NCBI RefSeq assembly: GCF_000814025.1
Contig: NZ_JWLL01000010.1
Span: 62,001-126,000 of the forward strand
Length of the DNA stretch: 64,000 bases
Direction: 5' to 3'
DNA from: Tateyamaria sp. ANG-S1
GTDB lineage: Bacteria > Pseudomonadota > Alphaproteobacteria > Rhodobacterales > Rhodobacteraceae
The position numbers were made by a program, and so were the translations under genes. A model generated the notes under the pieces. The model made no database searches. It had not been told where the DNA came from and saw nothing but the letters and a program-made list of their open reading frames with translations. Positions within the stretch are counted from its first letter, which is position 1, and every line of letters begins with the position of its first letter. This document shows, piece by piece, positions 1 through 43,272 of the stretch.

Positions 1-1502
1 CGCTGGCGCAATCCATGTCCCCGGATGCTCTGCTGATCTGCAACGGGGCCAAGGACGCGGCCTTTATCCATCTTGCCCTCCTGTCCCTGAAACTGGGGTT
101 CAACACCGTCATCGTGCTTGAAAGCCTGCATGAGTTCGAGACGGTCCATCGCATTGCAACGGACCTCAACATACGCCCGCGTTTGGGTGTCCGTGTGAAG
201 CTGATGGAGACCGTTGGCGGCAAATGGCAAGCCTCGTCGGGTGACCGTTCCGTCTTTGGCCTCGGCGCGCTGGATCTGGTGGAGCTGGCGGAACGGCTCG
301 ATGACACGGGGATGATGGATTGCCTCGTTCTGCAACACACCCATGTCGGGTCACAAGTGCCCCACATCATGGATGTGCGTCGCGCGACAACTGAGGCGTG
401 CCGCTTCTATGCCGAACTGTCGCGTATGGGCGCGCCCCTGCAATACCTGGACCTCGGCGGCGGTCTTGGCGTCGACTACACCGGCGCCCGGCGCGCAGAC
501 GATAACTCGGTCAACTACACGGTTCAGGAATACTGTACTAACCTCGTGGAAAGCGTCTTTTACGCCATGGAAGAGGCTGATCTGCCCCACCCCACTATCG
601 TTACAGAAAGCGGACGGTTCATTGCGGCGCAATCGGCGATCTTTGTTTTCGATATTCTGGATGCGACACTCTACGACACGCCGGAACGCCCAGCAATCGT
701 CGCCGGTGATCATCACTTACTCAGCGACCTGCTTGCCATAGAAACCTACATCAACGGCGACAGACTGCAGGAAGCGCTGAACGACGCGATTTACTACCGC
801 GACGAGATCCGCACCCTCTTTCGACACGGTCAGATCGGACTGCCGCTGATGGCGCGTGCGGAACAAGCGTTTCTATTTCTGCTGTCGCGCTTCAAAAAGG
901 TTGCCGGACAAGACGGGTGTTCCGGGCTGATCGACCGGCAATTGTCGCGCTTCGTGGACTATTACCACGGCAACTTCTCTGTCTTTCAGTCCTTGCCAGA
1001 TGTTTGGGCCATTGATCAGATGCACCCGGTCATGCCGCTTAGCCGGCTGAACGAGGCACCGACGCGACAGGCAATCCTCACAGACCTGACCTGCGACAGC
1101 GATGGTAAGATCGACCGTTTTGTGCTGCGTGACGGAATTGCAAATGCCTTGCCCGTCCATGACCTGCGCCCTGACGAAGACTACAACATCGGCGTCTTCT
1201 TCGTCGGTGCCTACCAAGAGACTTTAGGCGATTTACACAACCTGTTTGGCGACCCGAATGTGGTGACAATATCACTCGATGCAACGGGCGGTTTCACTAT
1301 TGAAAACGAGACCGAAGGCGACAGGATTGCCGAGGTTCTGACATATGTCGAATACGATCCTCAGGCCTGCCTTGCCACCTTCCGCAAGACGGTCGAACGG
1401 GCAGTAAAAGCCGGACGTGTCGACGCGACCGAGCGGCGCACAATGATCGCCGCCTACAAGGAGAGCCTGGCTGGCTCCACCTATTTTTCCACTGACCGCT
1501 AA
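1..1502 (+). CDS. speA: Biosynthetic arginine decarboxylase (SpeA type), 5' end cut by window edge
   Basis: This is the C-terminal ~499 residues of a PLP-dependent arginine decarboxylase, which converts arginine to agmatine and CO2. The frame is open from base 3 into the left edge, so the first ATG at 15 is internal. SpeA proteins are usually ~630-650 residues, so the missing part should hold the PLP lysine and the start of the barrel. Recognisable SpeA stretches are LGVRVKL, the QHTHVGSQ segment followed by DLGGGLGVDY, and the C-terminal domain with YYHGNFSVFQSLPD and WAIDQMHP. It ends 21 bp before the carboxyspermidine dehydrogenase gene. Its position at the head of a spermidine-to-siderophore operon suggests it supplies agmatine for spermidine. 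Family assignment is firm; the promoter and any iron box lie outside the window. Confidence 0.93.
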   Translation, partial: LAQSMSPDALLICNGAKDAAFIHLALLSLKLGFNTVIVLESLHEFETVHRIATDLNIRPRLGVRVKLMETVGGKWQASSGDRSVFGLGALDLVELAERLDDTGMMDCLVLQHTHVGSQVPHIMDVRRATTEACRFYAELSRMGAPLQYLDLGGGLGVDYTGARRADDNSVNYTVQEYCTNLVESVFYAMEEADLPHPTIVTESGRFIAAQSAIFVFDILDATLYDTPERPAIVAGDHHLLSDLLAIETYINGDRLQEALNDAIYYRDEIRTLFRHGQIGLPLMARAEQAFLFLLSRFKKVAGQDGCSGLIDRQLSRFVDYYHGNFSVFQSLPDVWAIDQMHPVMPLSRLNEAPTRQAILTDLTCDSDGKIDRFVLRDGIANALPVHDLRPDEDYNIGVFFVGAYQETLGDLHNLFGDPNVVTISLDATGGFTIENETEGDRIAEVLTYVEYDPQACLATFRKTVERAVKAGRVDATERRTMIAAYKESLAGSTYFSTDR

Positions 1503-1523
1503 CTGCAAAGCGAGGATTCAATT

Positions 1524-2729
1524 ATGGGACGTGTTTTGGTCATCGGGGCTGGCGGTGTAGGGGCCGTTGCCGTCGTGAAGATGGCGATGAATCCGGAGGT
1601 TTTCACGGACATAACCCTCGCCAGCCGCACCCTGTCAAAATGTGAGGACATTGCCGCAAACGTGCTAAAACGCACCGGCGTCACCATCAAGACCGCGCAA
1701 GTGGACGCGATGGATGTGGCCGCAACCGTGGCCCTGATCCGCGAAACCCAGGCAGAGCTGCTGGTCAACCTCGCCCTGCCCTATCAGGATCTCGTCCTCA
1801 TGGACGCCTGCCTTGAGGCGGGGATCCACTACCTCGACACCGCCAACTACGAACCCGAGGACGAGGCCAAGTTCGAATACAGCTGGCAATGGGCCTATCA
1901 GGACAAGTTCAAGGCCGCCGGTCTCAGCGCAGTCCTCGGCTCCGGGTTCGATCCCGGTGTCACCTCGATCTTCGCCACATGGGTCCGCAAACACAGGCTG
2001 GACGGCATCCGCCTGATCGACATCCTCGACTGCAATGGCGGCGACAATGGCAAACCCTTCGCCACCAACTTCAACCCCGAAATCAACATTCGAGAGGTCA
2101 CCGCCGTGGCCCGCCATTGGGAAAACGGCGACTGGGTAGAAACCCCGGCGATGAGCCGCAAGGTCGCCTTCGACTTCCCTGAAGTCGGGGAAAAGAACAT
2201 GTACCTCATGTATCACGAGGAACTTGAAAGCCTCAAAACCCACTTCCCCGAAGTGCAGCGCGCGCGCTTCTGGATGACGTTTGGCGATGCCTACATCAAC
2301 CACGTCACCGTGCTGCAGAATGTGGGTATGACGCGGATCGATGCGGTTATGCACGAGGGGCAGGAAATCATCCCGCTCCAATTCCTGAAATCCGTACTGC
2401 CGGATCCCAGCGATCTGGGCGAATTGACCAAGGGCAAGACCTGCATCGGTGACATTATCACCGGACCTACGTCGGACGGGGAAAAGACCTTTTACATCTA
2501 CAACATTTGCGATCACGAGGAGTGCTTTGCCGAAGCAGGTAGCCAGGCCGTTGCTTATACCACAGGCGTGCCTGCGATGATCGGCGCGGCCATGATGCTC
2601 AAGGGGATTTGGAAGCAGCCCGGCGTCTGGAACACCGAACAGCTCGATCCTGATCCCTTCATGGACATGCTCAATACCAACGGTCTGCCCTGGCAGATAG
2701 TGGAACTAGACGGACACCCTGAGTTCTGA
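1524..2729 (+). CDS. Carboxyspermidine/carboxynorspermidine dehydrogenase (saccharopine dehydrogenase family)
   Basis: 401 residues. The N-terminus MGRVLVIGAGGVGAVAVVKMA is a Rossmann dinucleotide-binding loop (GAGGVG), followed by the saccharopine-dehydrogenase-like body with the ANYEPEDEAKFEYSWQWAYQDKF and GSGFDPGVTSIF segments typical of carboxynorspermidine synthases. The family reductively condenses aspartate beta-semialdehyde with putrescine (giving carboxyspermidine) or diaminopropane (giving carboxynorspermidine), using NADPH. No diaminobutyrate aminotransferase/decarboxylase pair is nearby, while SpeA and agmatinase are, so putrescine is the likely acceptor and carboxyspermidine the likely product (inference). 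A GAGG ribosome site lies just upstream. The stop is adjacent to the start of the decarboxylase gene at 2729, indicating translational coupling. Confidence 0.93.
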   Translation: MGRVLVIGAGGVGAVAVVKMAMNPEVFTDITLASRTLSKCEDIAANVLKRTGVTIKTAQVDAMDVAATVALIRETQAELLVNLALPYQDLVLMDACLEAGIHYLDTANYEPEDEAKFEYSWQWAYQDKFKAAGLSAVLGSGFDPGVTSIFATWVRKHRLDGIRLIDILDCNGGDNGKPFATNFNPEINIREVTAVARHWENGDWVETPAMSRKVAFDFPEVGEKNMYLMYHEELESLKTHFPEVQRARFWMTFGDAYINHVTVLQNVGMTRIDAVMHEGQEIIPLQFLKSVLPDPSDLGELTKGKTCIGDIITGPTSDGEKTFYIYNICDHEECFAEAGSQAVAYTTGVPAMIGAAMMLKGIWKQPGVWNTEQLDPDPFMDMLNTNGLPWQIVELDGHPEF

Positions 2730-3904
2730 TGGTGGACATCGTCGATCTTTCACGACGGGGTTTCGCCCGGTTCGACCTGTCGCGAGTCCCCTCGCCCTGC
2801 TTTGTCGTGGATGAGGTCGCGGTCGAGCGCAACCTGACGATCCTGCAAGATGTCGCCGAACGGTCTGGCGCGCATATCCTCTTGGCGCTCAAAGCCTTCT
2901 CCATGTTCGCCCTCGCACCTCTGGTCAATCGCTACCTTGCTGGCACATGTGCATCAGGCCTCTACGAGGCGCGGTTGGGGCACGAGAAATACGGCGGTCT
3001 GGTCAGCACCTACTGCGCAGGCTTCAAACCCGCCGACCTGCCAGAGATCATCCGCCTGTCGGATCACCTGATCTTCAACACGCCTGCACAGCAAACCCGC
3101 TTTGCATCTGAGATCATCACTGCGCGCGAGCAAAGTGACGCTATAAGCATCGGCCTGCGGATCAACCCCAAGCATTCCGAAGGCTGGAACCCCAAATACG
3201 ACCCTGCGGCCGCCTGCTCCCGCCTTGGCACACCGCTGTCGCAGATAACCGACACTGACCTGAAGGGCATCGAAGGGCTGCACATGCACACGCTGTGTGA
3301 ACAAGGGTTCGAACCACTTCTGAGCACGTGGGAGGCCGTCGAACCGCGCCTCGCCCCTTGGCTACCGGAGATGAAATGGCTCAACCTCGGCGGCGGGCAC
3401 CACATCACCATGCCGGACTATGATCGGAGCGGTCTCATCGACCTTATCCGCCATATCCGCGCGCAATATGACATCGACGTCTTCCTCGAACCGGGCGAAG
3501 CGGTCGCGCTGCACGCAGGCATTCTGGTGGGTGAGGTGCTCGACGTGGCCCAGAACGACATGGCGCTGGCCATCACCGATATCTCCGCCACATGCCACAT
3601 GCCCGATGTGATCGAAGCGCCCTATCGCCCCGACCTACTAGGCGAGCAGAAAGAGGGCACGCCGATCCGAATGGGCGGCCCCTCCTGCCTCGCAGGCGAT
3701 GTGATCGGTGACTATGTTCCTGCTGCACCCGTGCAGCCCGGCGACCGGATCGCGTTTCTGGATCAAGCCCATTACTCGATGGTCAAAACCAACACGTTCA
3801 ATGGCGTGCCCTTGCCGGGGATCGCCTTGTGGAACTCCGATACCGACGCCCTGCAGATGATCCGCACCTTTAACTACGATGACTTTGTGGGGCGGTTGTC
3901 ATGA
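2729..3904 (+). CDS. nspC: Carboxyspermidine/carboxynorspermidine decarboxylase
   Basis: 391 residues, the usual length for the NspC branch of alanine-racemase-fold (group IV) decarboxylases. The PLP lysine sits in HILLALKAFSMF near the N-terminus. The glycine-rich phosphate loop WLNLGGGHHIT and the C-terminal segment GPSCLAGDVIGDY, which carries the active-site Cys contributed across the dimer, are both present. It decarboxylates carboxyspermidine to spermidine, the last step of the bacterial alternative spermidine pathway. It overlaps the preceding gene by one base and the following agmatinase gene by four (ATGA at 3901-3904). The spermidine would be the diamine arm substrate of the siderophore synthetases encoded just downstream. 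Confidence 0.94.
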   Translation: MVDIVDLSRRGFARFDLSRVPSPCFVVDEVAVERNLTILQDVAERSGAHILLALKAFSMFALAPLVNRYLAGTCASGLYEARLGHEKYGGLVSTYCAGFKPADLPEIIRLSDHLIFNTPAQQTRFASEIITAREQSDAISIGLRINPKHSEGWNPKYDPAAACSRLGTPLSQITDTDLKGIEGLHMHTLCEQGFEPLLSTWEAVEPRLAPWLPEMKWLNLGGGHHITMPDYDRSGLIDLIRHIRAQYDIDVFLEPGEAVALHAGILVGEVLDVAQNDMALAITDISATCHMPDVIEAPYRPDLLGEQKEGTPIRMGGPSCLAGDVIGDYVPAAPVQPGDRIAFLDQAHYSMVKTNTFNGVPLPGIALWNSDTDALQMIRTFNYDDFVGRLS

Positions 3905-4755
3905 CGCATTTCCTTGCAGGGGAACTCACTGCCGCAGAACGCGATCCACGTACCGCCGGGTTCCAAGTGATCCCTGTGCCCTTGGAACGCACGGTCTCTT
4001 ACGGCGCGGGCACCGCCCAAGGTCCCGAAGCCATCATCGAGGCAAGTACGGAGCTAGAGCGGCTCTTTGCCGGATCAGAGCCTTGTACAAAAGGTATCGC
4101 TACGCAGGAGGCAGTAGAATGCAGCGGCCCACTCCCCGAAGTGATGGAGAATATTGCCGCACGCACGGAAAGCGCCGTGCGCGCAGGTGCTGTACCGGTG
4201 ACCCTCGGCGGCGAGCACGCGCTTACCTACGGAGCCGTGTGCGGCATCAGGCGTGCGGTGGCGCGATCTATAGGCATCGTACAAATTGACGCCCACGCCG
4301 ACCTGCGCTGCGCTTACCAAGGCGAGAGGCACTCCCATGCCTCTGTCATGCAGCTTCTGGCTGAAGAGGAAGGCATTCCACTGGCTCAATTCGGTGTCCG
4401 CGCGCTGTGTCAGGAGGAGGCGAACCTCCGTAAAACGGCCAATGTGTTCTTCCGGGATGCCGAAGAGCTTGTTGTTGGCGATGTTCACGCTGTGGATCTT
4501 CCGACCGATTTTCCACAGGACATTTACATCAGTTTTGATCTGGACGGGCTCGACCCTTCGATTTTGCCAGACACGGGCACGCCCGTGCCCGGAGGCTTGG
4601 GATATTACCAAGCGCTCAACCTGCTGCGACACGCACTGAAAGGACGGCGCCTGATCGGCTGCGATGTTGTCGAGCTCGCACCCACCCCCGGAGGCGCAGT
4701 GTCCAGCTTCACAGCCGCGCAAATCACATACGCACTCATGTCCCTCGCGGACTAA
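3901..4755 (+). CDS. speB: Agmatinase (ureohydrolase family)
   Basis: 284 residues. It shows the binuclear manganese centre motifs of arginase/agmatinase enzymes in order: GGEHALTYG, DAHADLR and SFDLDGLDPS, then the GGLGYYQ segment. The expected reaction is agmatine to putrescine plus urea. Together with SpeA upstream this gives putrescine for the carboxyspermidine dehydrogenase. The start ATG overlaps the nspC stop by 4 bp, so it is translationally coupled. A non-agmatine guanidino substrate (arginine, guanidinobutyrate) cannot be excluded from sequence, but the neighbours argue for agmatine. A 123-bp gap without a recognised terminator separates it from the siderophore synthetase gene. Confidence 0.9.
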   Translation: MTHFLAGELTAAERDPRTAGFQVIPVPLERTVSYGAGTAQGPEAIIEASTELERLFAGSEPCTKGIATQEAVECSGPLPEVMENIAARTESAVRAGAVPVTLGGEHALTYGAVCGIRRAVARSIGIVQIDAHADLRCAYQGERHSHASVMQLLAEEEGIPLAQFGVRALCQEEANLRKTANVFFRDAEELVVGDVHAVDLPTDFPQDIYISFDLDGLDPSILPDTGTPVPGGLGYYQALNLLRHALKGRRLIGCDVVELAPTPGGAVSSFTAAQITYALMSLAD

Positions 4756-4878
4756 GCCAGGCCGCGCGCCCCAGCTACCCCAACATCGCAACGACCTGAT
4801 CGCCCCGGGGGCATCCACCCGCGGGTCATCCGGTGATCAACCACTGGCCACTTCGGTCAGCGCAGGAGGTATGCCAGA

Positions 4879-6693
4879 ATGCAAGCACCAACTCTTGAGA
4901 TCACAAAGAGCGCTCCGCCACCGACACAGCCGCTGGTACATACGGCGACGCAATCACGCACGTTGGACGCAAGTCGCTGCGCCGAACGCGCAACGCTTAA
5001 GGCACTGCTGAATTGCTATATCCGCGAGGTCTGCGCAGGCGCAGTTCTCCGCCCTGACGACCAAAGTGCGCCCATGCAGATGGAGGTTGCCCTCCCCCAA
5101 AGCGCAACACGCCTTCGGGTCGAGCTCCACTATTGTTCACTGGTCGGCCCCCACGACTTCGGACCCATCACCCAGTTCGATCAACAGGCCAAGACATGGC
5201 GACCTGCCCATCCCGCGCAAGTGATCACTATGCTGCTTATGGAGTGCGAGGCGCGGGTCCCCGGCGCGAATGGCACCGGGATGCTCGAACTGATGCGCCG
5301 TGTGCTTAACAGCTACGATCAGATCAGCAAACTTTGCCAAAACGCACCAGCACCCTGCGCCAGTTTCCTGCCTGCCGAACAGAGCCTCTATTTCGGTCAC
5401 TGGTTACACCCCACACCCAAAAGCCGTGAAGGCATGACCGACTGGCAACAAGCCGTCTACGCCCCCGAGTGTGGACGTGCGTTCCAACTCCATTATTTCG
5501 CTGTTGATAGCACATTGATCGAAACCGGATCGGCAAATGGTCAAAGCGCGCAAGACCTGCTCGCCGATATGCCCGATCTCGCGCTTGACGACGTCCGTCC
5601 AACTGAAACCGCAATCCCTATGCACCCGCTGCAGGCGCAAACCCTGCTGCTGCAACCCCAGGTCCAAGGGCTCATCGCAGCCGGACATCTCCGCGACCTT
5701 GGACCGCGAGGCACGGAATTTGCTGCGACGTCTTCGGTCCGCACGGTCTACGCACCCGACTGCCGATGGATGCTGAAATTCTCGCTGCCCGTCAAAATCA
5801 CAAACTCCCGTCGTGTAAATCTGCACCACGAGTTGGAAGCCGGTGTCGTCATGGCCCGCCTACTAGACAAAATCGGCCCCCTGCCGCCGCAATTTCATAT
5901 CATCAACGACCCTGCCTTCATGACACTGTCCTTGCCGGACAGCACCGAAAGCGGCTTCGAAGTCATCTTTCGCGAAAACCCCTTTGTCGATCAGGCTGGC
6001 GATGGCGTTACCACCATCGCAGCTCTGACGGCTGACCCTTTGTCGGGGCAACAATCGCTATTGTCCCAAACCATCATGGCGCTGTCGCGTGTTAACAAGA
6101 CCTTGCCCAGCAAGATGGCAAAACAGTGGTTCGCAGCCTACCTCGATTGTGCACTCAAACCGGCACTTGCGCTTTACGACCGCTGGGGCATCGCGCTTGA
6201 GGCGCATCAGCAAAACACCTTACTCGACATCGGCACGGGTCTGCCCACACGCGCCTTCTTCCGCGACAACCAAGGGTACTACATCGTAGACACGAAGCTC
6301 GATCGTCTCGCCACGCTGGAGCCAGGTTTGCGCAGCATTAAGGCGCTTTGCTTTGCCGAGGCAGAGATAAACGAACGCTATTGCTACTACCTGATCGTCA
6401 ATCAGGTCTTTTCCATCATCAGCCGCCTGGGCCGCGATGGCCTAGCCGACGAAAGCGCGCTTATCGCTCACCTTCGCACGTGCCTGGCCGACATCGGTGC
6501 GCAAGCCATGGGCCCCGCTGCAGGCTTCATTCAGTTTGTCCTGACCGCGGATCACCTGCCCGCCAAAGGCAACCTTCTGACTCGTCTGCATGATGTGGAC
6601 GAGCTGCAGGCCGAGGGGGAGAAAGCAGTCTACGTACGCCTTCCAAACCCCCTTTCCACACCGACGACGGAGGCCCGACATGTCCCTGCGTGA
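4879..6693 (+). CDS. asbA: NRPS-independent siderophore synthetase, AsbA-like (IucA/IucC family)
   Basis: 604 residues, matching the ~600 residues of Bacillus AsbA. Family hallmarks are HPTPKSREGMTDWQ (about residue 175-190), PMHPLQAQTLLLQPQ, the nucleotide-binding region ATSSVRTVYAPDCRWMLKFSLPVKITNS and GIALEAHQQNTLL, and the tail GNLLTRLHDVDEL. I recall near-identical wording of these blocks in Bacillus AsbA, which condenses citrate with spermidine. In petrobactin assembly AsbA makes the first citryl-spermidine amide. An AGGAGG at 4864-4869 sits 9 nt before the ATG and fixes the start. The gene overlaps the next synthetase by 14 bp. The upstream spermidine genes agree with spermidine as the amine. 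Confidence 0.93.
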   Translation: MQAPTLEITKSAPPPTQPLVHTATQSRTLDASRCAERATLKALLNCYIREVCAGAVLRPDDQSAPMQMEVALPQSATRLRVELHYCSLVGPHDFGPITQFDQQAKTWRPAHPAQVITMLLMECEARVPGANGTGMLELMRRVLNSYDQISKLCQNAPAPCASFLPAEQSLYFGHWLHPTPKSREGMTDWQQAVYAPECGRAFQLHYFAVDSTLIETGSANGQSAQDLLADMPDLALDDVRPTETAIPMHPLQAQTLLLQPQVQGLIAAGHLRDLGPRGTEFAATSSVRTVYAPDCRWMLKFSLPVKITNSRRVNLHHELEAGVVMARLLDKIGPLPPQFHIINDPAFMTLSLPDSTESGFEVIFRENPFVDQAGDGVTTIAALTADPLSGQQSLLSQTIMALSRVNKTLPSKMAKQWFAAYLDCALKPALALYDRWGIALEAHQQNTLLDIGTGLPTRAFFRDNQGYYIVDTKLDRLATLEPGLRSIKALCFAEAEINERYCYYLIVNQVFSIISRLGRDGLADESALIAHLRTCLADIGAQAMGPAAGFIQFVLTADHLPAKGNLLTRLHDVDELQAEGEKAVYVRLPNPLSTPTTEARHVPA

Positions 6694-8383
6694 GGCCGTC
6701 CGCATTGAGACGACGGGTCAGCGGGTCGTGCGCCAACTATGCGAGGCGCTGATTTTTGAAGGGCTGTGCAAGCTCGCCCCAAACATCGGGATCGGGTGCT
6801 GGACATGGGGTGGCACAACCATTCGGGCCAAAATCACGTTGGGTGGCTTCAACCGCCCACGGATTACACCTGGTTCAGTGCAGATACAGTGCGGCACGGG
6901 TTGGGCACCGGCATCTGCAACAGATCTGCTCGCAACCGCGCCGATAGCAGAAGCCATGCGACAGGAATTGGCCGAAGATCTGCACCGCAGCGAAGCATTG
7001 ACCGATCTGACGGGTCCCGATGTCCACCAGCGCGGACTGCGCAGCGGCATGAGCTGTGACGCGCTGGAAAGCGCCTTGCACGAAGGACACCCCTACCACC
7101 CCTGCTTCAAGGCGCGTAGCGGGTTCTCGGACAAAGACCACCTGATTTACGGCCCCGAAGCCGGGCGCTGCTTCCAGCTTGAATGGCTGGCTGTAGATCA
7201 AACCTTGGTCGATCAGTCGCTTCCCGACCGCTTTCTCGACACCGAGTTGGACGCCGCCACGCGGCTGCAACTCTGCGCGCAAGCAACAGCCAAGGGTGTC
7301 ACGCTTGCCGCTCACACACTTGTTCCTGTGCATCCCTGGCAGCAGCGCGCACTTCAGGGCAATGCAATATATCAGGCGTGGCGTGATGCTGGGCGCATCA
7401 CGCATCTCGGCGCCTTCGGCGACCGGTACCGTGCCACGCAATCGGTGCGTACGCTTGCCAATGCCGATCACCCAAACCGTGCACACGTGAAGATGGCGAT
7501 GGCGATGCGCAATACGTCGTCACTGCGCATCATAGAACCACACTCTGTGTGCGCGGCACCGGCCATCAGCGACTGGCTCGTCACCATCATCGCAAACGAT
7601 CCTGTGTTCAGCGACACATGCCGCCTGACCCTGTTGCGAGAATACGCCGGGATCATCGTCGGGCGGGACACACCATTGTCGGGGCATCTCGCGGCGATCT
7701 ATCGCGACAGCCCTCAGGGCGCGGGCCTCAACGCGCACCAGGTCATGCCGCTCAACGCGCTCGCCGTCACCGAGGCCTCGGGCGAGCCGCTCATTGCCCC
7801 GTGGGTGCAGCGCTATGGCATACATGTTTGGGTAGATCAGGTGCTGCGCACCACTGTCTTGCCTATATGGCACTTGATGGTGGCCCACGGCATCGGGCTG
7901 GAGGCACATGGCCAAAACCTGCTTCTGGAACACGACAACGGCTGGCCCATTGGTCTGATCGCGCGGGACTTTCACGAAAGCGTGGAATACGTGCCGGACC
8001 TTTTATCGCAGCCTGACCTCGTTCCCGATCTCGCAGCCATCGACCCGGTCTATGCCAACGCCGCTCCGGGCCAGTTTCACCGCATGGCAGGGGGCGAGGA
8101 CCTGCGCGAATTGGTGATGGACACATTGTTCGTCTACAACCTGTCAGAATTGGCCGCGCTTTTGCAGCGCCACTACGGGCTGACCGAGACGCTGTTCTGG
8201 CAGCGGGTGCGTACCGTGATCGACCAGCATGTCGCCCGCCGTGAGTTGAAGGCGCGGCAAGCGGCCTTTGCCCCCTTCGTGCCCAGCATCTCTACCGAGT
8301 CTCTCCTGACACTCAAGCTGAACGGTGGAACGGGCGTGTTTCGTCACACCGTGCCCAATCCGCTCTGCACCACGAAAGGATAA
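6680..8383 (+). CDS. asbB: NRPS-independent siderophore synthetase, AsbB-like (IucA/IucC family)
   Basis: 567 residues from the ATG at 6680. An open frame continues upstream, but the GGAGG at 6668-6672 and the N-terminus MSLREAVRIETTGQRVVRQ support this start. IucA/IucC motifs are HEGHPYHPCFKARSGF, VPVHPWQQRAL, RYRATQSVRTLAN and the GIGLEAHGQNLLLE loop, followed by RDFHESVEY. In petrobactin synthesis AsbB adds the second spermidine, or its dihydroxybenzoyl derivative, to the citryl intermediate. The HPWQQ/GQNLL wording differs from the HPLQA/QQNTL of the upstream enzyme, so the two are distinct types and not a recent duplication. It is spaced 3 bp from the ligase gene downstream. Confidence 0.92.
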   Translation: MSLREAVRIETTGQRVVRQLCEALIFEGLCKLAPNIGIGCWTWGGTTIRAKITLGGFNRPRITPGSVQIQCGTGWAPASATDLLATAPIAEAMRQELAEDLHRSEALTDLTGPDVHQRGLRSGMSCDALESALHEGHPYHPCFKARSGFSDKDHLIYGPEAGRCFQLEWLAVDQTLVDQSLPDRFLDTELDAATRLQLCAQATAKGVTLAAHTLVPVHPWQQRALQGNAIYQAWRDAGRITHLGAFGDRYRATQSVRTLANADHPNRAHVKMAMAMRNTSSLRIIEPHSVCAAPAISDWLVTIIANDPVFSDTCRLTLLREYAGIIVGRDTPLSGHLAAIYRDSPQGAGLNAHQVMPLNALAVTEASGEPLIAPWVQRYGIHVWVDQVLRTTVLPIWHLMVAHGIGLEAHGQNLLLEHDNGWPIGLIARDFHESVEYVPDLLSQPDLVPDLAAIDPVYANAAPGQFHRMAGGEDLRELVMDTLFVYNLSELAALLQRHYGLTETLFWQRVRTVIDQHVARRELKARQAAFAPFVPSISTESLLTLKLNGGTGVFRHTVPNPLCTTKG

Positions 8384-8386
8384 CCG

Positions 8387-9610
8387 ATGTTCATTCTGAA
8401 TGACCGGCAAGTCGATATCGCCCCACTGTCCGGGCAAGACTTCATCAATCCCGAAAGTCATCGCTACGCTATACATCTGCATGATAAGGACGCAGTACTT
8501 AGCCATATCCTGGCTCTCTGGTGGGCTGATGCCGGGGTGTTTCCCATCCATCCTGACATCCCAGCGACCAAGGCGCGTGACATGGCCTTGCAGGCAGATT
8601 GCGACAGGTTGGTCAATGAAGCGGGCGTGCACGCGCTGCCCGTCGTGGCTGACGCACTGGGTGGTGTGCTGGTCCAGATGAGCTCTGGCACGACCGGTGC
8701 ACCAAAGGTCATCACCCGCACTTGGGACCAAGTGCGGCGTGAACTCGAAAGCTACGTCGCCGCTTTTCCTGAACCCGCTGACATGACGCCCGTTATTGCC
8801 TGTCCGATCACTCATTCCTACGGATTGATCGCTGGGGTCATGGTCGCGCTGGAGCGGGGTCACATGCCCGTCGTTATCGACACCCTGAACCCAAAATACA
8901 TATTGCGACGTATGCGCGAGCTGCGCGCGCCGCTCCTCTACACCTCTCCGGCAATGCTGCATACGCTCGCGGCCTTTTCACCAGCGGATCATCCCATGTA
9001 CGGGGCCATGACCTCCGGCACGATCCTGTCAAAGCCGTGGTTCGAACAGATCAGGGCCAAGACCACCCATCTGTTCCAGCAATACGGCTGCTCGGAAGCG
9101 GGCTGCATCGCCATCAATCCCGATCTTCAGGACGCCGCTGCGGTTGGGCGCCCTCTCACCCATCTGAAGTTGAAAACCAGCAAAGACCCCAACGCGCCAG
9201 CGCCCATAGTTGTCAATGATGGGCAGCGCAACATCGATACAGGCGACCTCGGGTACCTGACCTCGGATGGCATGCTCGTCTTCGTGGCGCGGCAGGACGA
9301 TGTCATCGACGTGGCGGGCCTTAACGTCTACCCGCAAGAGGTCGAACAGGCCGCCCTCGCCATGGACGGTGTCGGCGACGCGCTGGCCTTTGCGCAAAAG
9401 GACGCGCTCGGCGGTGATCGCGTCGGCCTCGTTTTCGAAGGGTCCGACGTGGCACCCAACGATCTGCGCCTGTGGCTGATAGAGCGTCTTGCGCCCTACC
9501 AACTCCCAGCGACGCTGCATTCTGTCCCGCGCCTCCCTCGCGAGGCCAACGGCAAGATCAACCGTCGCGACGTCGCCCGCCGGTTCGCCGAAGCGGAGAC
9601 AACGCTATGA
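8387..9610 (+). CDS. asbC: Aryl-AMP ligase, AsbC-like (3,4-dihydroxybenzoate adenylation)
   Basis: 407 residues, close to the ~410 of AsbC and shorter than usual stand-alone adenylation enzymes. The phosphate-binding loop is QMSSGTTGAPKVITRTW (about residues 96-112), the core motif is IDTGDLGYLTSDG, and the adenylate-forming lysine is in EANGKINRRD (Lys390). The C-terminal mobile domain is present (ERLAPYQLPATLHSVPRLPRE). The family activates an aryl acid and loads a carrier protein. The product of the downstream asbF homologue points to 3,4-dihydroxybenzoate (inference). The stop overlaps the carrier-protein fusion gene by 4 bp (ATGA), consistent with co-translation with its partner carrier. 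Confidence 0.9.
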   Translation: MFILNDRQVDIAPLSGQDFINPESHRYAIHLHDKDAVLSHILALWWADAGVFPIHPDIPATKARDMALQADCDRLVNEAGVHALPVVADALGGVLVQMSSGTTGAPKVITRTWDQVRRELESYVAAFPEPADMTPVIACPITHSYGLIAGVMVALERGHMPVVIDTLNPKYILRRMRELRAPLLYTSPAMLHTLAAFSPADHPMYGAMTSGTILSKPWFEQIRAKTTHLFQQYGCSEAGCIAINPDLQDAAAVGRPLTHLKLKTSKDPNAPAPIVVNDGQRNIDTGDLGYLTSDGMLVFVARQDDVIDVAGLNVYPQEVEQAALAMDGVGDALAFAQKDALGGDRVGLVFEGSDVAPNDLRLWLIERLAPYQLPATLHSVPRLPREANGKINRRDVARRFAEAETTL

Positions 9611-10878
9611 AAGACGCACACATCCTGTCCGCCATCGAAACCACCCTGCGCGGCCCAATGGCCAACGCTCACATGGCCAATTTCGACCCTGACGCGCGGC
9701 TAAACGAGGATCTGCATCTCGACTCGGTCCTGATCCTCCACCTGCTCCTGCACCTCGAAACCATGCACGGCATTGACGTGCCCGAACGGGAGATGAGTAA
9801 GGCAGGCGTCGGAACCGTCCGTGACCTGATCGCTTTCCTGACCGGGCAGTCCATTGAGGCAGAGCAAGAGGAAGAAATCGACATCAAGGTTCATTGCGTC
9901 GTCAGCTGCCTGAGTGCCGCGATCAAGGCGTGCCCAGACCTCGACCACCGCCCCTTCTACTTCGGCGTGTGGGACACCGGCTTCGAGGTCGATGACGCCT
10001 TTCGACTGTCCTACCACGGTCCAACAGTCAAACATGACCACTTTAGACACTGGTTCCGGCGGCTTTACGGGGTCAACGTGATTGGCTGGTACAGCAAGGA
10101 CCGGACCAAGGCCGAAAACATCGCGTGTTTCGAACACCTCCTGGCAACCAAACGCAGCACCGAACACCTTATGGTGATGCTGGACATGTACCACCTCCCC
10201 GAGCGGGAAAATAAGTTCAACCAGAACCCGTTTCCCCACTACATCATGATCGAAAAGACCCCCGATCCCGACCGCTGGTTCATGCACGATCCCGACTACC
10301 GGTGGGAGGGCATACTGCCCCGCGCCGCCATCCTGAACGCCATCAACCAGCCCACGGTCGCGGGCGGCTATATCTTCGACCGAGCCAAGGCGCGCGCGCC
10401 ACGCAACGAAGACCTGCGCGCCTATTTCGAGGCCGTGTTCCTTGAAAAACGGAACCCCATGATCGACGCCACGCGCCGGATCGTGCGCGCTCATCTCGAC
10501 CCGGCGGGGCCGCTCAATCACACCGCGCTTGCAGATGCCCTGCGCGAACTGCCCGTGCTCGCCATCCGCAAATACGCCTATGAGCACGGGTTCGCGGTGT
10601 TCTGGCGCGCGCTCGACCTGCCCGATCAAGACTTCGAAGACTGGTGCGACGAGATCGAAGCACTGCACCAGGGTTTCCGCACGCTCCAGTACAAGATCAC
10701 CAAACTCTCCGCCTCCGGCGACCCCGCACTGGCCACACAGGTCTTTGCCGCCCTCGACGCGCTCGACCAGCGCGAAACCCACATCAAGGCCGGGCTCAAG
10801 GCCTGGTTCGTCAAATGGCAAGTCTCGACCTTCGCCTCGGGCGAAGTCCCTCTCGTCATGACAGGAGCAGACCAATGA
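9607..10878 (+). CDS. Fused aryl carrier protein plus petrobactin-type condensing protein (AsbD-AsbE fusion)
   Basis: 423 residues from the ATG that overlaps the asbC stop; a longer upstream frame exists but would run deep into asbC. Residues 1 to ~85 form an acyl-carrier domain, with the phosphopantetheine serine at Ser40 in HLDSVLILHLLLHLE. After an acidic linker (EAEQEEEID) residues ~95-423 match the DUF6005/AsbE type, for example HRPFYFGVWDTGFEV, HDHFRHWFRRLYGV, NPFPHYIMIEKTPDPDRWFMHDPDYRWEG and ALRELPVLAIRKYAYEHGFAVFW. In Bacillus these are two proteins of ~91 and ~327 residues; here they are one chain of about the summed length. The expected role is to carry the 3,4-dihydroxybenzoyl thioester and transfer it to a spermidine amine. 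It overlaps asbF by 4 bp. Confidence 0.88.
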   Translation: MKDAHILSAIETTLRGPMANAHMANFDPDARLNEDLHLDSVLILHLLLHLETMHGIDVPEREMSKAGVGTVRDLIAFLTGQSIEAEQEEEIDIKVHCVVSCLSAAIKACPDLDHRPFYFGVWDTGFEVDDAFRLSYHGPTVKHDHFRHWFRRLYGVNVIGWYSKDRTKAENIACFEHLLATKRSTEHLMVMLDMYHLPERENKFNQNPFPHYIMIEKTPDPDRWFMHDPDYRWEGILPRAAILNAINQPTVAGGYIFDRAKARAPRNEDLRAYFEAVFLEKRNPMIDATRRIVRAHLDPAGPLNHTALADALRELPVLAIRKYAYEHGFAVFWRALDLPDQDFEDWCDEIEALHQGFRTLQYKITKLSASGDPALATQVFAALDALDQRETHIKAGLKAWFVKWQVSTFASGEVPLVMTGADQ

Positions 10879-11714
10879 ACATCTCGCTGTGCACGATCAC
10901 CTTTCGCCACCACCTTGTCAGCCTTGAACAAATCGCCGATTGGGCCAGCCGGAACGGCTTTCAGGGGATTGAGATCTGGGGCGCCCATGCGCGGCATATC
11001 CCCTTTGCCACGGGCCATGACGCGCGCTGGCTGGCGGGTTTCGGGCTACAGGTGCCTATGGTCAGTGATTACTTGCCGCTTCACAAACCGGAGGCTCTGG
11101 AGGATAAAACCGTGGCAGCGCTCAATCAGGCGCGGCGCTGGGACACGACCAACATCCGCACCTTCGTGGGTCCATCTGGCAGCGCAGACATGGCCGAACC
11201 GGACCGGAAGAATATCACAAGCGCTCTGCGCGCCGCTTGCGAACAGGTGGCAGAGCACGGGCGGTCCCTACTGGTTGAGACCCACCCAGGCACACTGGCT
11301 GACACGCTGGCCTCGACCGTGAGGTTGCTGGATGAAGTCGACCACCCCGCCCTCGGCATCAACTTCGATGCCCTGCATGTTTGGGAAGGCGGCGACGATC
11401 CCTGCGCCGCCCGGCAAGTGCTGCAGCCGAAGATACGTAACTACCATTTCAAGAACATATCGGCGCGTTCCGCACTGCCTGTCTTTGCCCCCAACAACAT
11501 CTATGACGCGGCTGGTTCGCGCGACGGCATCGTACCGGTATTCGAGGGAGAGATGGACTATACCCCGCTTCTCCAGGACCTCGCCGAAGAACCGGACGCG
11601 CGCATATCGCTGGAATGGTTCGGTGACAACGTGTTCGACACATTGAAACGCGACTGCGCCGCTCTGCACAAGATGCTGGGTGACGCGAAGACCTCATTGC
11701 AACACGCCTCCTGA
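10875..11714 (+). CDS. asbF: 3-Dehydroshikimate dehydratase, AsbF-like
   Basis: 279 residues, as in Bacillus AsbF (~280). It is a xylose-isomerase-like (AP endonuclease 2) TIM barrel with the divalent-metal ligands in family order: Glu135 (VETHPG), Asp165 (NFDALHV), His191 (NYHFKN) and Glu247 (SLEWFG). The N-terminus MNISLCTITFRHHLVSLEQIADWA also resembles AsbF. The reaction converts 3-dehydroshikimate to 3,4-dihydroxybenzoate (protocatechuate), the catechol of petrobactin. The start is chosen from the ATGA overlap with the asbDE fusion; an in-frame extension upstream would lie inside that gene. It is followed 11 bp later by the exporter gene. Confidence 0.92.
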   Translation: MNISLCTITFRHHLVSLEQIADWASRNGFQGIEIWGAHARHIPFATGHDARWLAGFGLQVPMVSDYLPLHKPEALEDKTVAALNQARRWDTTNIRTFVGPSGSADMAEPDRKNITSALRAACEQVAEHGRSLLVETHPGTLADTLASTVRLLDEVDHPALGINFDALHVWEGGDDPCAARQVLQPKIRNYHFKNISARSALPVFAPNNIYDAAGSRDGIVPVFEGEMDYTPLLQDLAEEPDARISLEWFGDNVFDTLKRDCAALHKMLGDAKTSLQHAS

Positions 11715-11725
11715 TACGTCCGGCC

Positions 11726-13555
11726 ATGCCTTTCCGTTTCTTCGAAAACCGAATTGACCCGTTCGCTGACATTGTGGACGGTGCACGGCCCCGCACAGTT
11801 CTGGGCTACATCCGATCAGAACTTATGCCCTATCGCCGCTGGTTGCCCTTGATCGCACTTACGGGGCTTCTAACGGCGCTGATGGAAAGCGGACTGATCT
11901 TCTATTCCGGGCGCCTCATCGACCTTATGACGACCAGCGGTCCCGCTGCGTTTTGGCAACAACACAGTACCGAGGTGTTGCTGGCCCTGTTCGTTGTTCT
12001 TGCGATCCGACCTGCTCTCGTGATGCTCAACCACCTGTTGCTGGAGCAGACACTGTCGTCAAACCTGCAGGAACAGGTGCGGTGGCGGGCGCATAAACAC
12101 CTTTTGGGGCAATCGGTTGGCTTCTTCCAAAACGACTTTGCCGGGCGTTTGTCGAACCGTGTGATGCAGATGGGTCCCGCGGTTCAGGACAGTGTGCACA
12201 TGACGTTCGAAGCCCTGTGGTTCAGCGTCACCTACGTGATCGGGGCAGTACTGATCCTCAGCCAGATTGACATCCGCCTGGCACTGCCTCTTGTCCTGTG
12301 GGTGATCGGCTATGGCTTCTATGTCCGCCATATCGCGGTAAAGGTCGGTACCGCCTCTGAACGATGGGCCGATGGGCGATCTATGGCGACAGGACGGGTT
12401 GTTGACGCCTACAGCAATATCGAAACGGTCAAGCTGTTCGCCCACAACAGGCAGGAGCAAGACTATGCGCTGTCCGCCCTGCGGCGCCTGCGCCTGCGCT
12501 TTCAACGGTTCCTGCGATTGATGACAATGCTGGCATTTGGCATGAACGCGATCAACGGCCTCCTGATCCTGATCCTTGTTGGACCGGCCATTTGGTTTTG
12601 GACCCTCGGCACGGTGACAATCGGAGAGGTAGCCGCCACCTCCGCCCTTGCCATCCGGCTGAACGGGATGAGCAACTGGATCATGTGGGTCACCATCCGG
12701 CTTTTTGAAAACAGCGGCATTATTCAGGAGGGTCTGCGGTCCATCGCAATACCGCATTTGATCAGAGACACCCAAGGGGCTTCCGTCCTGCCCCGCAGGG
12801 CAGGCGAGATTTCAGTGCGGAATGTCACCCACCGCCACGGCAAGAATGACAACGGACTACAAAGCGTGAACCTGAACATCCCCGCCGGCCAGAAACTCGG
12901 GATTGTCGGCAAATCCGGCGCTGGCAAATCCACGCTCGCCAACCTTTTGATGCGGTTTGATGATCCCGAACAAGGGCAGATCTTGATCGATGGCACACCC
13001 ATCGACCAGCTCACGCAGCGCAGCCTGCGGCAACAGATCGGCATGGTCAGCCAGAATAGCGCGCTCATGCACCGCTCCATCCGCGAGAACCTGCTTTATG
13101 GCAACGATACCGCGACCGAAGCAGATATGGTTCGTGCGGCCAAGCAAGCCCACGCCCATGACTTCATACTGACGCTTCGCGATAGTGCCGGGCGGCTTGG
13201 CTACGACGCACATGTCGGCGAACGTGGAGTAACCCTTTCCGGAGGTCAGCGTCAGCGTATCGCGATTGCCCGCGTGATCCTCAAGAACGCACCCATCCTG
13301 ATCCTGGACGAAGCGACATCCGCTCTGGACAGCGCGGTCGAGGTCGAAATCCAAGAGGCGCTTCAGACGATCATGCAGGACAAAACAGTAATCGTTATCG
13401 CGCATCGCCTGTCCACGTTGGTGAACATGGATCGCATCATCGTTCTTGAAAACGGTCGAATTATCGAGGATGGCCCTCCAGCCACATTGCGTGCAAGCAC
13501 GGGCCGCTTTGCAGAGTTCTGGCGCATGCAGCGGGGCGAGGTGCGCTCCGCTTAA
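11726..13555 (+). CDS. ABC exporter, fused permease-ATPase (candidate siderophore exporter)
   Basis: 609 residues: an N-terminal six-helix type IV exporter domain to about residue 330, then an ATPase with Walker A GKSGAGKST (about 395-403), Q-loop VSQNSALMHRSI, signature LSGGQRQR (about 505), Walker B ILILDEATSALD (about 524) and the H-loop IAHRLSTL. It is the last gene of the siderophore operon, 11 bp after asbF. No other membrane protein is encoded in the block, so export of the siderophore is the natural inference. No outer-membrane receptor or periplasmic binding protein for uptake is seen in the window. The 74 bp to the convergent type VI gene contain no convincing terminator hairpin. 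Confidence 0.85.
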   Translation: MPFRFFENRIDPFADIVDGARPRTVLGYIRSELMPYRRWLPLIALTGLLTALMESGLIFYSGRLIDLMTTSGPAAFWQQHSTEVLLALFVVLAIRPALVMLNHLLLEQTLSSNLQEQVRWRAHKHLLGQSVGFFQNDFAGRLSNRVMQMGPAVQDSVHMTFEALWFSVTYVIGAVLILSQIDIRLALPLVLWVIGYGFYVRHIAVKVGTASERWADGRSMATGRVVDAYSNIETVKLFAHNRQEQDYALSALRRLRLRFQRFLRLMTMLAFGMNAINGLLILILVGPAIWFWTLGTVTIGEVAATSALAIRLNGMSNWIMWVTIRLFENSGIIQEGLRSIAIPHLIRDTQGASVLPRRAGEISVRNVTHRHGKNDNGLQSVNLNIPAGQKLGIVGKSGAGKSTLANLLMRFDDPEQGQILIDGTPIDQLTQRSLRQQIGMVSQNSALMHRSIRENLLYGNDTATEADMVRAAKQAHAHDFILTLRDSAGRLGYDAHVGERGVTLSGGQRQRIAIARVILKNAPILILDEATSALDSAVEVEIQEALQTIMQDKTVIVIAHRLSTLVNMDRIIVLENGRIIEDGPPATLRASTGRFAEFWRMQRGEVRSA

Positions 13556-13629
13556 CATCTGCGCTCTCTAGGTTGTTTCGGTAAGCTCTCACGAAGCATA
13601 AACGTTTCAACGGGTGGTGACGCGGCTCG

Positions 13630-15021
13630 TCAGTCCCCGTCATTGCGCGACCGAAGCCGAACGCACATGGCGCTTGCGTCACACGACGCCCCGGCAATCA
13701 ATGCGTCTTGCGTGAGCTCCTCAACTGCTGCACGGGGCGTTGATGCCCGCGCCAATGTATGCGCAATCTCCTGTTGGCTCAGCGCAGTGGTGACACCGGG
13801 TGATGCCAGTAGAAAGCAGTCTCCGGGTTCGACCTGCCCGATTGCAGTCGAGGGTGCCGCCATCTGGTCCGCACCCAGTGCTTGCGTCACAACCCCGCGC
13901 AGCCTGGTATCTACATGCGGGCGGTTCAGGGAAAAGAGCGTTCCGTCTCGAAAGAGGAAGGCGCTGCAATGGCCAACCCAAAGTAATGCATACCGCCGCG
14001 CTTGCACCAGCAATACGATTGCAGACGCCGCAACCGGATCCTCAGCGGCCGTGGCCATACGCGCACGGGCTGAAAGCCGAGTGTTGGCCGAGCCGAATTT
14101 TCCCTTTGCGACTGCGATCAGGTCGCTCATTGAAAAAGGATCGGCAATGTCCTGAAACACCGGCACCAGACCGTTGATTTGTGATGCCAAGGACGGCGCC
14201 GACCCGATCCCGCTGAGCAGCGAGAACGCCTGATCATCTTTGTTGACGGCGGTGGCCTCGGTCAGTGTAGCGCTGCGTGCGCCTCGCAGACATGCGCTTG
14301 CGTGGTCCGCTTTAAGTAACTGAACAGGTGCGGGTGTTGGCGCAGGTGTTCGCGTTTCGCTGGGTGTTTCCGTCAAATGCAACCGGGTTTGCGGGTCCGG
14401 TGTGTCCTCGTCCGGTGGCGGCGGCCCCATGAACATGTCCGCAAACTCCGACGGGGATGGCAGGGCGCGTGTCAGGTGCGCGCGCGCGCCATCGGTGCCG
14501 GTCCACCAATAGGCGACAGGGGCTTCGGCATCCGCGACATCCGGAGGTGCGAGATTGCGCAACGCTCCGAAAGGCAGTGCCTCGACCTCCAGCGCGAGGT
14601 CGGTGGGAAGCTCGGGCGCCCGCAAGCAGGACATCACCAGCGCTTCGGCGGCATCGAAGAAAGCTGTGTCTTCGGTCAGCGCCATCGGATCGCGCTCTCC
14701 CAGATCAGGGCGCGACACGGCGATCACCAAGGGGAAGTACCGCCCCACGCGGTCGACCGATGGCATCATGACGCCTGCCACCGGATCAGGGCCTCGCCCG
14801 CCTGTTTCAAGAACGAAGCGCCAGACAGGTGTCACCAGAAACGCATCAAGCCATCCGCGCCCAAGGCTCTTTTGGCTTTCCCGCATCGCGGCGCGTAGCC
14901 AGTGGTCGAATGTGGTTTCGACATCGCGCGGCAGGCCTCCGCTCACGAAATCGCCTGCTTGCGGAATTTTCCCAAAAAAGCCGCGCCAACCTGTTCGAAC
15001 GGGGTCCGGAGCAACGGACAT
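13630..15021 (-). CDS. tagF: Type VI secretion TagF-PppA fusion with a degenerate phosphatase domain
   Basis: 463 residues. Residues 1 to ~195 are the TagF domain, starting GWRGFFGKIPQAGDFVSGGLP with LDAFLVTPVWRFVLE and PSVDRVGRYFPL. A Pro/Thr-rich linker (about 200-235) leads to a PP2C-like domain, an arrangement known from Agrobacterium TagF-PppA. The catalytic motifs are altered: NKDD at 260-263 for NEDA, SGIG at 270-273 where active enzymes have DGMG, VGHCS at 349-353 for VGDSR, and SPGV at 407-410 for SDGL. Only the terminal Asp448 looks kept. I therefore expect little or no phosphatase activity (inference). TagF is a repressor of type VI activity in other species. It is the last gene of the leftward operon, 3 bp after tssM. 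Confidence 0.85.
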   Translation of the reverse strand: MSVAPDPVRTGWRGFFGKIPQAGDFVSGGLPRDVETTFDHWLRAAMRESQKSLGRGWLDAFLVTPVWRFVLETGGRGPDPVAGVMMPSVDRVGRYFPLVIAVSRPDLGERDPMALTEDTAFFDAAEALVMSCLRAPELPTDLALEVEALPFGALRNLAPPDVADAEAPVAYWWTGTDGARAHLTRALPSPSEFADMFMGPPPPDEDTPDPQTRLHLTETPSETRTPAPTPAPVQLLKADHASACLRGARSATLTEATAVNKDDQAFSLLSGIGSAPSLASQINGLVPVFQDIADPFSMSDLIAVAKGKFGSANTRLSARARMATAAEDPVAASAIVLLVQARRYALLWVGHCSAFLFRDGTLFSLNRPHVDTRLRGVVTQALGADQMAAPSTAIGQVEPGDCFLLASPGVTTALSQQEIAHTLARASTPRAAVEELTQDALIAGASCDASAMCVRLRSRNDGD

Positions 15022-15024
15022 GTT

Positions 15025-21337: not shown

Positions 21338-21353
21338 GAAACGTCTTCTCCTG

Positions 21354-23587: not shown

Positions 23588-23588
23588 G

Positions 23589-40951: not shown

Positions 40952-41061
40952 GCGCAAGGTCCCCGCTTCCCTGTTTTAAAAAATCCTCCCCGAAGGACCG
41001 ATCCGCCAAGGAGCCGTTCGGGGAATTCAAAGTCCATCGCGCCAATGTCAGAGGACACCCA

Positions 41062-41457: not shown

Positions 41458-41463
41458 GTGAGA

Positions 41464-41479
41464 GGGGGGCCAGCCCCCC
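41464..41479. terminator. GC-rich hairpin between convergent cupin and deacetylase genes
   Basis: GGGGGG and CCCCCC pair across a CCAG loop (41464-41479), and a second C-run at 41490-41496 offers an alternative longer stem. There is no good T-run on the plus strand, so terminator function is tentative. Confidence 0.4.
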
Positions 41480-43262: not shown

Positions 43263-43272
43263 CTATGTGCTT

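Follow-up and report, generated by a model that had tools for sequence, protein, structure and literature searches.

The window analysed here, a 64,000-base stretch from the squid symbiont Tateyamaria sp. ANG-S1, opens within a run of ten intact genes, all on the + strand, which ORF analysis traces from 478 bases 5' of the window to position 13555. The genes stand in the order speA, carboxyspermidine (carboxynorspermidine) dehydrogenase (CASDH), nspC-type decarboxylase, speB, asbA, asbB, asbC, asbDE, asbF and ABC exporter, which bears out the initial annotation of a petrobactin-type operon that carries spermidine genes. The window edge cuts speA (biosynthetic arginine decarboxylase), so that its 3' part occupies 1..1502 (+), whereas the frame opens with a GTG at L003 17523, 478 bases upstream of the window; the whole gene exceeds the cut-offs of NCBIfam PRK05354 (711.7 bits, cut-off 369) and TIGR01273 (634.3, cut-off 624.1). 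CASDH (1524..2729, +) matches solved structures of a saccharopine dehydrogenase (PDB 4rl6, 543.4 bits) and a carboxyspermidine dehydrogenase (8deb, 530.3 bits), and scores 404.3 bits against NCBIfam NF043000, under the cut-off of 800. The nspC-type carboxyspermidine/carboxynorspermidine decarboxylase (2729..3904, +) aligns with PDB 9eaf over residues 17-391 (400.3 bits) and falls slightly under the cut-off of TIGR01047 (394.2 against 409.05), while speB, encoding an agmatinase (3901..4755, +), passes TIGR01230 (194.5 bits, cut-off 174.3) and has an agmatine ureohydrolase as its closest solved structure. Together, the four predicted enzymes would form the ADC-CASDH-CASDC-agmatinase pathway from arginine to spermidine in one operon, with the NCBIfam scores of CASDH and the decarboxylase being sub-cut-off.

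Downstream lie two IucA/IucC synthetase genes, one of type A and one AsbB-like. The asbA-like product (4879..6693, +; Pfam IucA_IucC and FhuF) has IucA as its top solved match (170.1 bits) with no AsbA chain among four matches, and is placed only as a type A NIS synthetase, in a position and order matching those of asbA in other asb loci. By comparison, the asbB-like NIS synthetase (6680..8383, +) has petrobactin AsbB itself as top solved match (3to3, 284.8 bits; runner-up 144.9); its longest frame opens at 6590 and its likely start is 6680, with the domains retained. The asbC-like AMP ligase (8387..9610, +; AMP-binding Pfam) scores 450.5 bits against PRK08308, under the cut-off of 513. Separate homologues of asbA to asbF had been annotated initially, and all six functions are indeed present; separate asbD and asbE genes are, however, ruled out by a single open frame (9607..10878, +), in which a carrier domain is fused to DUF6005 (AsbE; 481.5 bits), as also seen in an alignment with two relatives. 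The carrier part scores 53.8 bits against the AsbD model PRK07639, under the cut-off of 100, so that the petrobactin-type set of AsbC ligase, AsbD carrier and AsbE is complete with AsbC and AsbD below and DUF6005 far above their thresholds. The product of asbF (10875..11714, +), a predicted 3-dehydroshikimate dehydratase yielding 3,4-dihydroxybenzoate, has AsbF as its sole solved match at E<=0.001 (3dx5, 245.3 bits), and this score and that of DUF6005 put the operon content far beyond chance.

The last gene (11726..13555, +) encodes a probable siderophore exporter of the ABC type with fused membrane and ATPase domains (Pfam ABC_membrane and ABC_tran) and no above-cut-off NCBIfam model among the matches listed. 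An exporter gene also adjoins asbF in L065-L067 and, with opposite orientation, in L068, L119 and L120. Successive genes are separated by +21 (speA/CASDH), -1 (CASDH/nspC), -4 (nspC/speB), +123 (speB/asbA), -14 (asbA/asbB), +3 (asbB/asbC), -4 (asbC/asbDE), -4 (asbDE/asbF) and +11 bases (asbF/exporter). Overlaps thus exist at several junctions, as was initially put forward in favour of a single transcript, which we consider likely for the ten genes; however, a second promoter is possible between speB and asbA because of the 123-base gap.

Upstream of the operon and outside the window lie a TonB receptor gene (L003 11354-13366, +), for which the initial annotation had suggested looking, a FecBCD-type ABC importer with binding protein (L003 13379-16934, -) and a DUF2218 gene (L003 17027-17332, -). 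Heme-receptor models score highest for the receptor, yet sub-cut-off (189.3 vs 316.85), so that it is a candidate for ferric siderophore uptake. YclQ, a petrobactin-binding protein, is among the top three solved matches of the binding protein. A single TGA-N9-TCA palindrome between the DUF2218 gene and speA is retained in the close relative G396; the motif has 11 matches in 32 kb, and no such palindrome was found ahead of speA in L119. As a candidate iron-responsive operator it is weak. Scans of window positions 1-14000 for promoter- and terminator-like signals gave fewer matches than in shuffles, and Rfam at gathering thresholds returned a TPP riboswitch only.

CASDH, the nspC-type gene and speA each occur once in the host genome, in all three cases inside the siderophore operon. 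PF00278 is found only in the nspC-type decarboxylase and in LysA; the latter accounts for the additional AR-fold decarboxylase considered as a second spermidine route (TIGR01048, 476.6 bits). Searches of the host with CASDH, PF00278, PF02784, PF01564 and PF01276 turned up no further route to spermidine or putrescine. PF01564 and PF01276 are both absent from it, and as positive controls were detected in 11/14 and 4/14 genomes, respectively. Within these searches, the siderophore block seems to hold the only recognisable spermidine pathway of the host.

Within the genus, two of 20 Tateyamaria genomes have both CASDH and asbE, and the other 18 have neither. Operon content and order are conserved in G396 (75-94% protein identity), and the ten-gene order is identical in L065, L066 and L067. 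Spermidine genes stand beside asb in 3/23 asb loci, in line with the initial view that most such loci rely on general polyamine metabolism, several of the other 20 having short upstream flanks. The same four genes also adjoin the asb cluster on a plasmid of Leisingera sp. S132 (L119), and in G327 asb and the four genes are on separate contigs. A close CASDH homologue is present in 35 other genera of Rhodobacteraceae, and in 20/20 contexts examined from other genera it is accompanied by speA and stands without asb. These free-standing speA-CASDH-nspC-speB operons comprise the same four genes (CASDH 75-85% identical), and no other siderophore cluster was found among the 10 neighbouring ORFs examined around the two nearest of them (L045, L046). 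The best explanation is that the four-gene set derives from this spermidine operon, which stands alone in other genera of Rhodobacteraceae.

In the AsbDE tree, the four genes adjoin asb clusters of two distinct lineages, and a single clade for the asb-linked four genes was rejected by an AU test on quick trees. Based on the trees and the differing junctions, we favour attachment of the four genes to asb clusters at least twice, once in a Tateyamaria type and once in a Leisingera type; alternatively, they may have been joined once, early on, with asb later lost from G243 and G308. Gene loss is plausible because the four genes have been reported from Epibacterium ulvae and Phaeobacter, which belongs to the same AsbDE clade, does not have them. 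The CASDH tree omitted L065 (a repeat of G396) and L128 (a repeat of L049); the AsbDE tree omitted L065, L010, L012, L015, L073, L075, L080, L086 and rows <330 residues; and the four-gene tree omitted L051 (no nspC-type gene), L065, L127, L128 and L129.

We propose that ANG-S1 encodes a complete petrobactin-family siderophore locus whose spermidine genes mainly feed the siderophore, a reading in which we have considerable confidence. What the Asb enzymes do is well known from the petrobactin pathway, and petrobactin holds two spermidines. SpeA would convert arginine to agmatine and SpeB agmatine to putrescine, from which CASDH and the decarboxylase would form spermidine, predicted here over norspermidine because SpeA and SpeB yield putrescine. 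AsbF would provide 3,4-dihydroxybenzoate, which AsbC could load onto the AsbDE carrier domain and AsbE couple with spermidine, before AsbA and AsbB attach the arms to citrate. The product, most likely a petrobactin-family siderophore of citrate, 3,4-dihydroxybenzoate and spermidine, would be exported by the ABC protein, and its ferric form re-imported via the upstream receptor and importer. The supply, assembly and export logic of the initial annotation thus fits the observed families, structure matches and synteny. Counting against a petrobactin locus are the sub-cut-off curated models for CASDH, the decarboxylase, AsbC and AsbD, the heme-type receptor scores, the split contigs of G327, a negative CAS result for ANG-S1, and the fact that free-standing four-gene operons can serve a cell without a siderophore.

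The four spermidine genes could instead be a general polyamine operon that merely adjoins asb, with the siderophore drawing on a common spermidine pool. The lack of other such genes in the host, the 20/20 free-standing contexts and the speB-asbA separation would all suit this arrangement; nevertheless, we regard it as unlikely, since the 18 genus genomes without CASDH are exactly those without asbE, so that CASDH is not generally needed in the genus, and since the four genes adjoin asb clusters in two different lineages. Somewhat less unlikely is a petrobactin relative, roseobactin-, rhodopetrobactin- or methylolanthanin-like, with another polyamine (homospermidine or norspermidine), acetylation or a different aryl acid. 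The asbD-asbE fusion is common to the rhodopetrobactin, roseobactin and methylolanthanin loci, and methylolanthanin has 4-hydroxybenzoate despite an asbF-like gene in its locus (PMC11317620); homospermidine is described in rhodopetrobactin (PMC7857480), and the NCBIfam names for CASDH and the decarboxylase refer to carboxynorspermidine. Against such a product, SpeA and SpeB point to putrescine and hence spermidine, the ten operon genes hold no match to a diaminobutyrate enzyme, and neither they nor the upstream genes examined match an acetyltransferase, a trait of the rhodopetrobactin/methylolanthanin subtype.

A locus that is silent or dead in ANG-S1 appears improbable, even though PMC4337385 reports no siderophore activity for this strain in a CAS test. 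The authors propose special induction conditions, all ten genes are open frames, and their content and order persist in G396. CAS activity is reported for E. ulvae, which carries a cluster of this kind (PMC7989816).

The architecture is not new, and the initial claim of novelty carries little weight: roseobacter siderophore clusters with these four polyamine genes were published in 2015 (PMC4337385) and 2019 (PMC7989816). As in the ANG-S1 locus, these clusters of squid-gland roseobacters (Collins et al. 2015) and of E. ulvae are described as combining the four genes and an asb-type cluster with a TonB receptor and an iron-chelate ABC importer. The plasmid cluster of Leisingera sp. S132 has a TonB receptor between speB and asbA, whereas in ANG-S1 asbA directly follows speB, the receptor is on the far side of the importer genes, the exporter is co-directional and the AsbDE protein falls in a different clade. 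Petrobactin asbABCDEF loci of Bacillus and Sinorhizobium fredii (PMC8822346) have equivalents of the six functions, likewise arranged; unlike them, the ANG-S1 locus has fused asbD and asbE and attached spermidine genes and ABC exporter, the petrobactin exporter of B. anthracis being the RND-type ApeX (PMC5596346). Compared with the rhodopetrobactin, roseobactin and methylolanthanin loci, it has spermidine genes and no asbB-asbC fusion.

What is new, within the profiles searched, is a host spermidine route found nowhere but in this operon, together with the co-occurrence of CASDH and asbE in 2/20 genus genomes set against free-standing CASDH operons elsewhere. How petrobactin producers pay for two spermidines is rarely visible from a genome. 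In ANG-S1 the genes for supply accompany those for assembly, and they are missing from members of the genus that have no such siderophore locus. The operon is therefore a clear-cut case in which to study modules of precursor supply that move with biosynthetic clusters, and also possible iron control over the polyamine synthesis of a cell. More tentatively, the cell could depend on this operon alone for de novo synthesis of putrescine and spermidine, with iron starvation rather than growth timing polyamine synthesis. On this view, asb clusters would have taken up an existing spermidine operon on two or more occasions, which would make siderophore output independent of the host's polyamine metabolism in a genus mostly without recognisable spermidine synthesis.

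The host had also been considered unusual as a phototroph. Phototrophy is indicated in the window by Photo_RC (58682-59719, -) and a protochlorophyllide-reductase-type protein (61394-62884, -). Petrobactin-like loci are already known in Alphaproteobacteria (PMC8776838, PMC8822346, PMC11317620).

The siderophore operon with spermidine genes of its own, as proposed in the initial annotation, is real and consists of ten plus-strand genes extending from L003 17523 (on L003, the stretch of the same contig that reaches upstream of the window; 478 bases ahead of its first base) to window position 13555. Their order is speA, the carboxyspermidine dehydrogenase gene (CASDH), an nspC-type carboxy(nor)spermidine decarboxylase gene, speB, asbA, asbB, asbC, asbDE, asbF and an ABC exporter gene, with gaps at the nine junctions (5' to 3') of +21, -1, -4, +123, -14, +3, -4, -4 and +11 bases. 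All six functions listed there as separate asbA to asbF homologues are present, but asbD and asbE form one fused gene, a fusion known from rhodopetrobactin loci, roseobactin loci and mllDE, according to the accessible part of PMC11317620. The window covers bases 62001-126000 of a contig of 139,830 bases (GC 61.4%), one of the 32 that make up a genome of 4,425,579 bases (completeness 100). Upstream of speA, a DUF2218 gene (83.2 bits, cut-off 29.1) and importer genes for a periplasmic binding protein, two FecCD permeases and an ATPase lie on the minus strand. The TonB receptor that the initial annotation proposed to look for upstream is found beyond them on the plus strand. Thiamine genes, preceded by a TPP riboswitch (L003 10984-11086, minus strand, 73.1 bits), are located farther upstream than this uptake module.

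Among solved structures, the top match of AsbB is petrobactin AsbB (284.8 bits; runner-up 144.9), and AsbF matches AsbF as its sole hit; the DUF6005 domain, the AsbE part of AsbDE, scores 481.5 bits. AsbA can be assigned only from its type and position, since its top solved match is IucA (170.1 bits). SpeA exceeds both arginine decarboxylase cut-offs, and SpeB exceeds that for agmatinase. The decarboxylase aligns with a solved carboxynorspermidine decarboxylase along almost its entire length (400.3 bits), and a solved carboxyspermidine dehydrogenase ranks second for CASDH (530.3 bits) after a protein named saccharopine dehydrogenase (543.4). Curated NCBIfam cut-offs are not reached by CASDH (404.3 of 800), the decarboxylase (394.2 of 409.05), AsbC (450.5 of 513) or AsbD (53.8 of 100). 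The top three solved matches of the binding protein are an ABC transporter protein, a siderophore-binding protein and YclQ. No ligand is assigned to the TonB receptor because heme-receptor families, its best models, all score under cut-off and its top solved match, FrpB, reaches only 70.1 bits. Based on these predicted activities, the operon is likely a complete petrobactin-family siderophore locus in which the four spermidine genes would mainly feed the siderophore, our confidence being slightly lowered by the several models under cut-off.

These four genes form the only spermidine route found in the genome among the families searched. Tateyamaria sp. ANG-S1 encodes a single CASDH, its PF00278 matches are LysA and the operon's decarboxylase and nothing else, and its PF02784 matches are LysA and the operon's SpeA and nothing else. 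Neither a PF01564 aminopropyltransferase (control: matched in 11 of 14 genomes) nor a PF01276 decarboxylase (control: 4 of 14) was found in this genome. Within the genus, CASDH occurs in two of 20 genomes, ANG-S1 and its close relative G396, and these same two carry asbE (DUF6005). Such a coincidence of two pairs would arise at random once in 190, and shared descent may make the overlap a single event. A third candidate carrier, G408, was discarded (partial match, 23%, E 7e-5). All 20 genomes have a first PF02784 match of ~200-210 bits, which is LysA in ANG-S1 and was taken as LysA in the others. Nine have a second, namely SpeA in ANG-S1 and G396, proteins of ~390-463 residues in six genomes (the one examined, at locus L112, is nearest to lysine/ornithine decarboxylases) and a 592-residue protein in G403, whose matched part comes closest, under cut-off, to an exosortase-associated decarboxylase model. 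An aminopropyltransferase scores above cut-off in one genome, G400. Recognisable spermidine synthesis is therefore seen in three of the 20 genomes, two of them via the siderophore operon, in a search that covered CASDH, PF02784 and aminopropyltransferases in all 20 and, of these 20, PF01276 in ANG-S1 alone.

Across the family, DUF6005 was detected in 3 of 394 genomes, ANG-S1 included, and the nearest named locus is that of Tateyamaria omphalii DP5N21-5 (L065; AsbDE 88% identical). Two short patterns, run against genome contigs in a non-exhaustive scan, yielded 23 asb loci. The adjacency noted in the initial annotation recurs in three of these (L065, L066 and L067), and the four genes were not found within the fetched flanks of the other 20, the upstream flank being short in several of them. 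Plasmid records with AsbDE matches number 71, including 47 from Phaeobacter and five from Leisingera; CASDH at >=80% identity occurs in two plasmid records, one of which, from Leisingera sp. S132 (L119), has it beside asb. The annotation of that plasmid places a CcdA/CcdB toxin-antitoxin pair (L119 32750-33282) between the asbF and exporter genes. In L015 (3046-5820, minus strand) and L084 (probably Pararhodobacter sp. CCB-MM2), a single 924-residue frame spans AsbB and AsbC, resembling mllBC, a fusion in the methylolanthanin locus; AsbF was not found adjoining it.

CASDH matches occur in 129 of the 394 family genomes, five of them discarded as weak and partial only. By our own count, 36 are of a close form (73-100% identity), 87 of a distant form (~40-46%) and one is a 58% fragment; the two very different forms occur together in none of the listed genomes. 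The close form is nearer (~55-63%) to proteins of Catenovulum, Paenibacillus and Bacteroidota than to the distant form. In 20 contexts of 10-20 kb, fetched from the 35 close-form copies besides that of ANG-S1, CASDH is accompanied by speA in all 20, the nspC-type gene in 19 and speB in 18 (L051 stops at a contig end; L049 has no speB match). None of the 20 contains asbA to asbF, one of these genomes (G327) having asb on a different contig.

A CASDH tree (27 rows) and a quick four-gene tree (24 rows) both recover five asb-linked and two free-standing copies as a supported group of seven, within which the Leisingera S132 copy is sister to the free-standing copy of G308 and the four Tateyamaria-type copies group with that of G243. 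On quick trees, a single clade of all five asb-linked copies was rejected (lnL 173 lower, p-AU 1e-48), and holding the four Tateyamaria-type rows together was not (p 0.53). The Tateyamaria and Leisingera types also form separate clades in the AsbDE tree (34 rows). The junctions differ. L119 has a TonB receptor between speB and asbA, and comparison with Phaeobacter places its four genes in the space that separates the binding protein from the receptor. In ANG-S1, speB is followed directly by asbA, and the receptor is found on the far side of the importer genes. Because of these trees and junctions, we read the four genes as having joined asb clusters at least twice. Alternatively, one early union may have been followed by repeated losses. 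Loss as such is plausible given that the AsbDE clade of Leisingera and Epibacterium holds both E. ulvae with the four genes and Phaeobacter without them. This lowers the probability of the broader proposal, which we regard as rather doubtful, that the operon is the cell's only de novo source of putrescine and spermidine, timed by iron starvation, and that asb clusters captured a spermidine operon at least twice.

The initial interpretation holds in part. The architecture it considered unusual is of a kind already in print (PMC4337385, PMC7989816). The accessible sections of these papers describe, in squid-gland roseobacters, a siderophore cluster with four polyamine genes as well as catechols produced by Leisingera ANG1 (Collins 2015, PMC4337385), and, for E. 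ulvae, name the four genes, propose spermidine for the siderophore backbone and report CAS activity (PMC7989816). A literature search, mostly without subscription papers and extending to parts of the sources, returned no statement of such an operon as its host's only polyamine pathway. The ANG-S1 operon is a further case of the published architecture, differing in how its genes are arranged and set in an unusual context across the genome.

A 17-base imperfect palindrome fitting TGA-N9-TCA lies between DUF2218 and speA, and at the same place in G396. This pattern is reported for RirA targets in the available text of PMC8822346, where 5 of the 10 RirA peaks found in S. fredii contain it. As G396 is close to ANG-S1, 32 kb hold 11 matches to the pattern and no match precedes speA in L119, this predicted regulatory site is a lead only. 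Rhodobacterales are stated to have no RirA homologue (PMC3413700); RirA homologues are named in Paracoccus denitrificans (PMC9409073) and RirA in Dinoroseobacter shibae (PMC8007024), each according to the accessible part of the source.

Directly downstream of the operon are type VI secretion genes (TagF, IcmF, DotU, VasE, TssF; 13630-25481, minus strand), with a ClpB/ClpV-like ATPase of this region at 31558-34140 (plus strand). In the accessible text of Collins et al. 2015 (PMC4337385), which lists a Tateyamaria sp., such a system is present in all but one of the authors' isolates. A reaction-centre gene is also present within the window. Oligopeptide-type ABC transporter genes (39482-40951, 45683-47236) surround a gene for a histone-deacetylase-family protein (41501-42658, minus strand), and an aldehyde dehydrogenase gene (47523-49142) lies in the same region (39482-49142). 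The histone-deacetylase family includes acetylpolyamine amidohydrolases, and uptake and use of polyamine or acetylpolyamine is a possible function of these genes.
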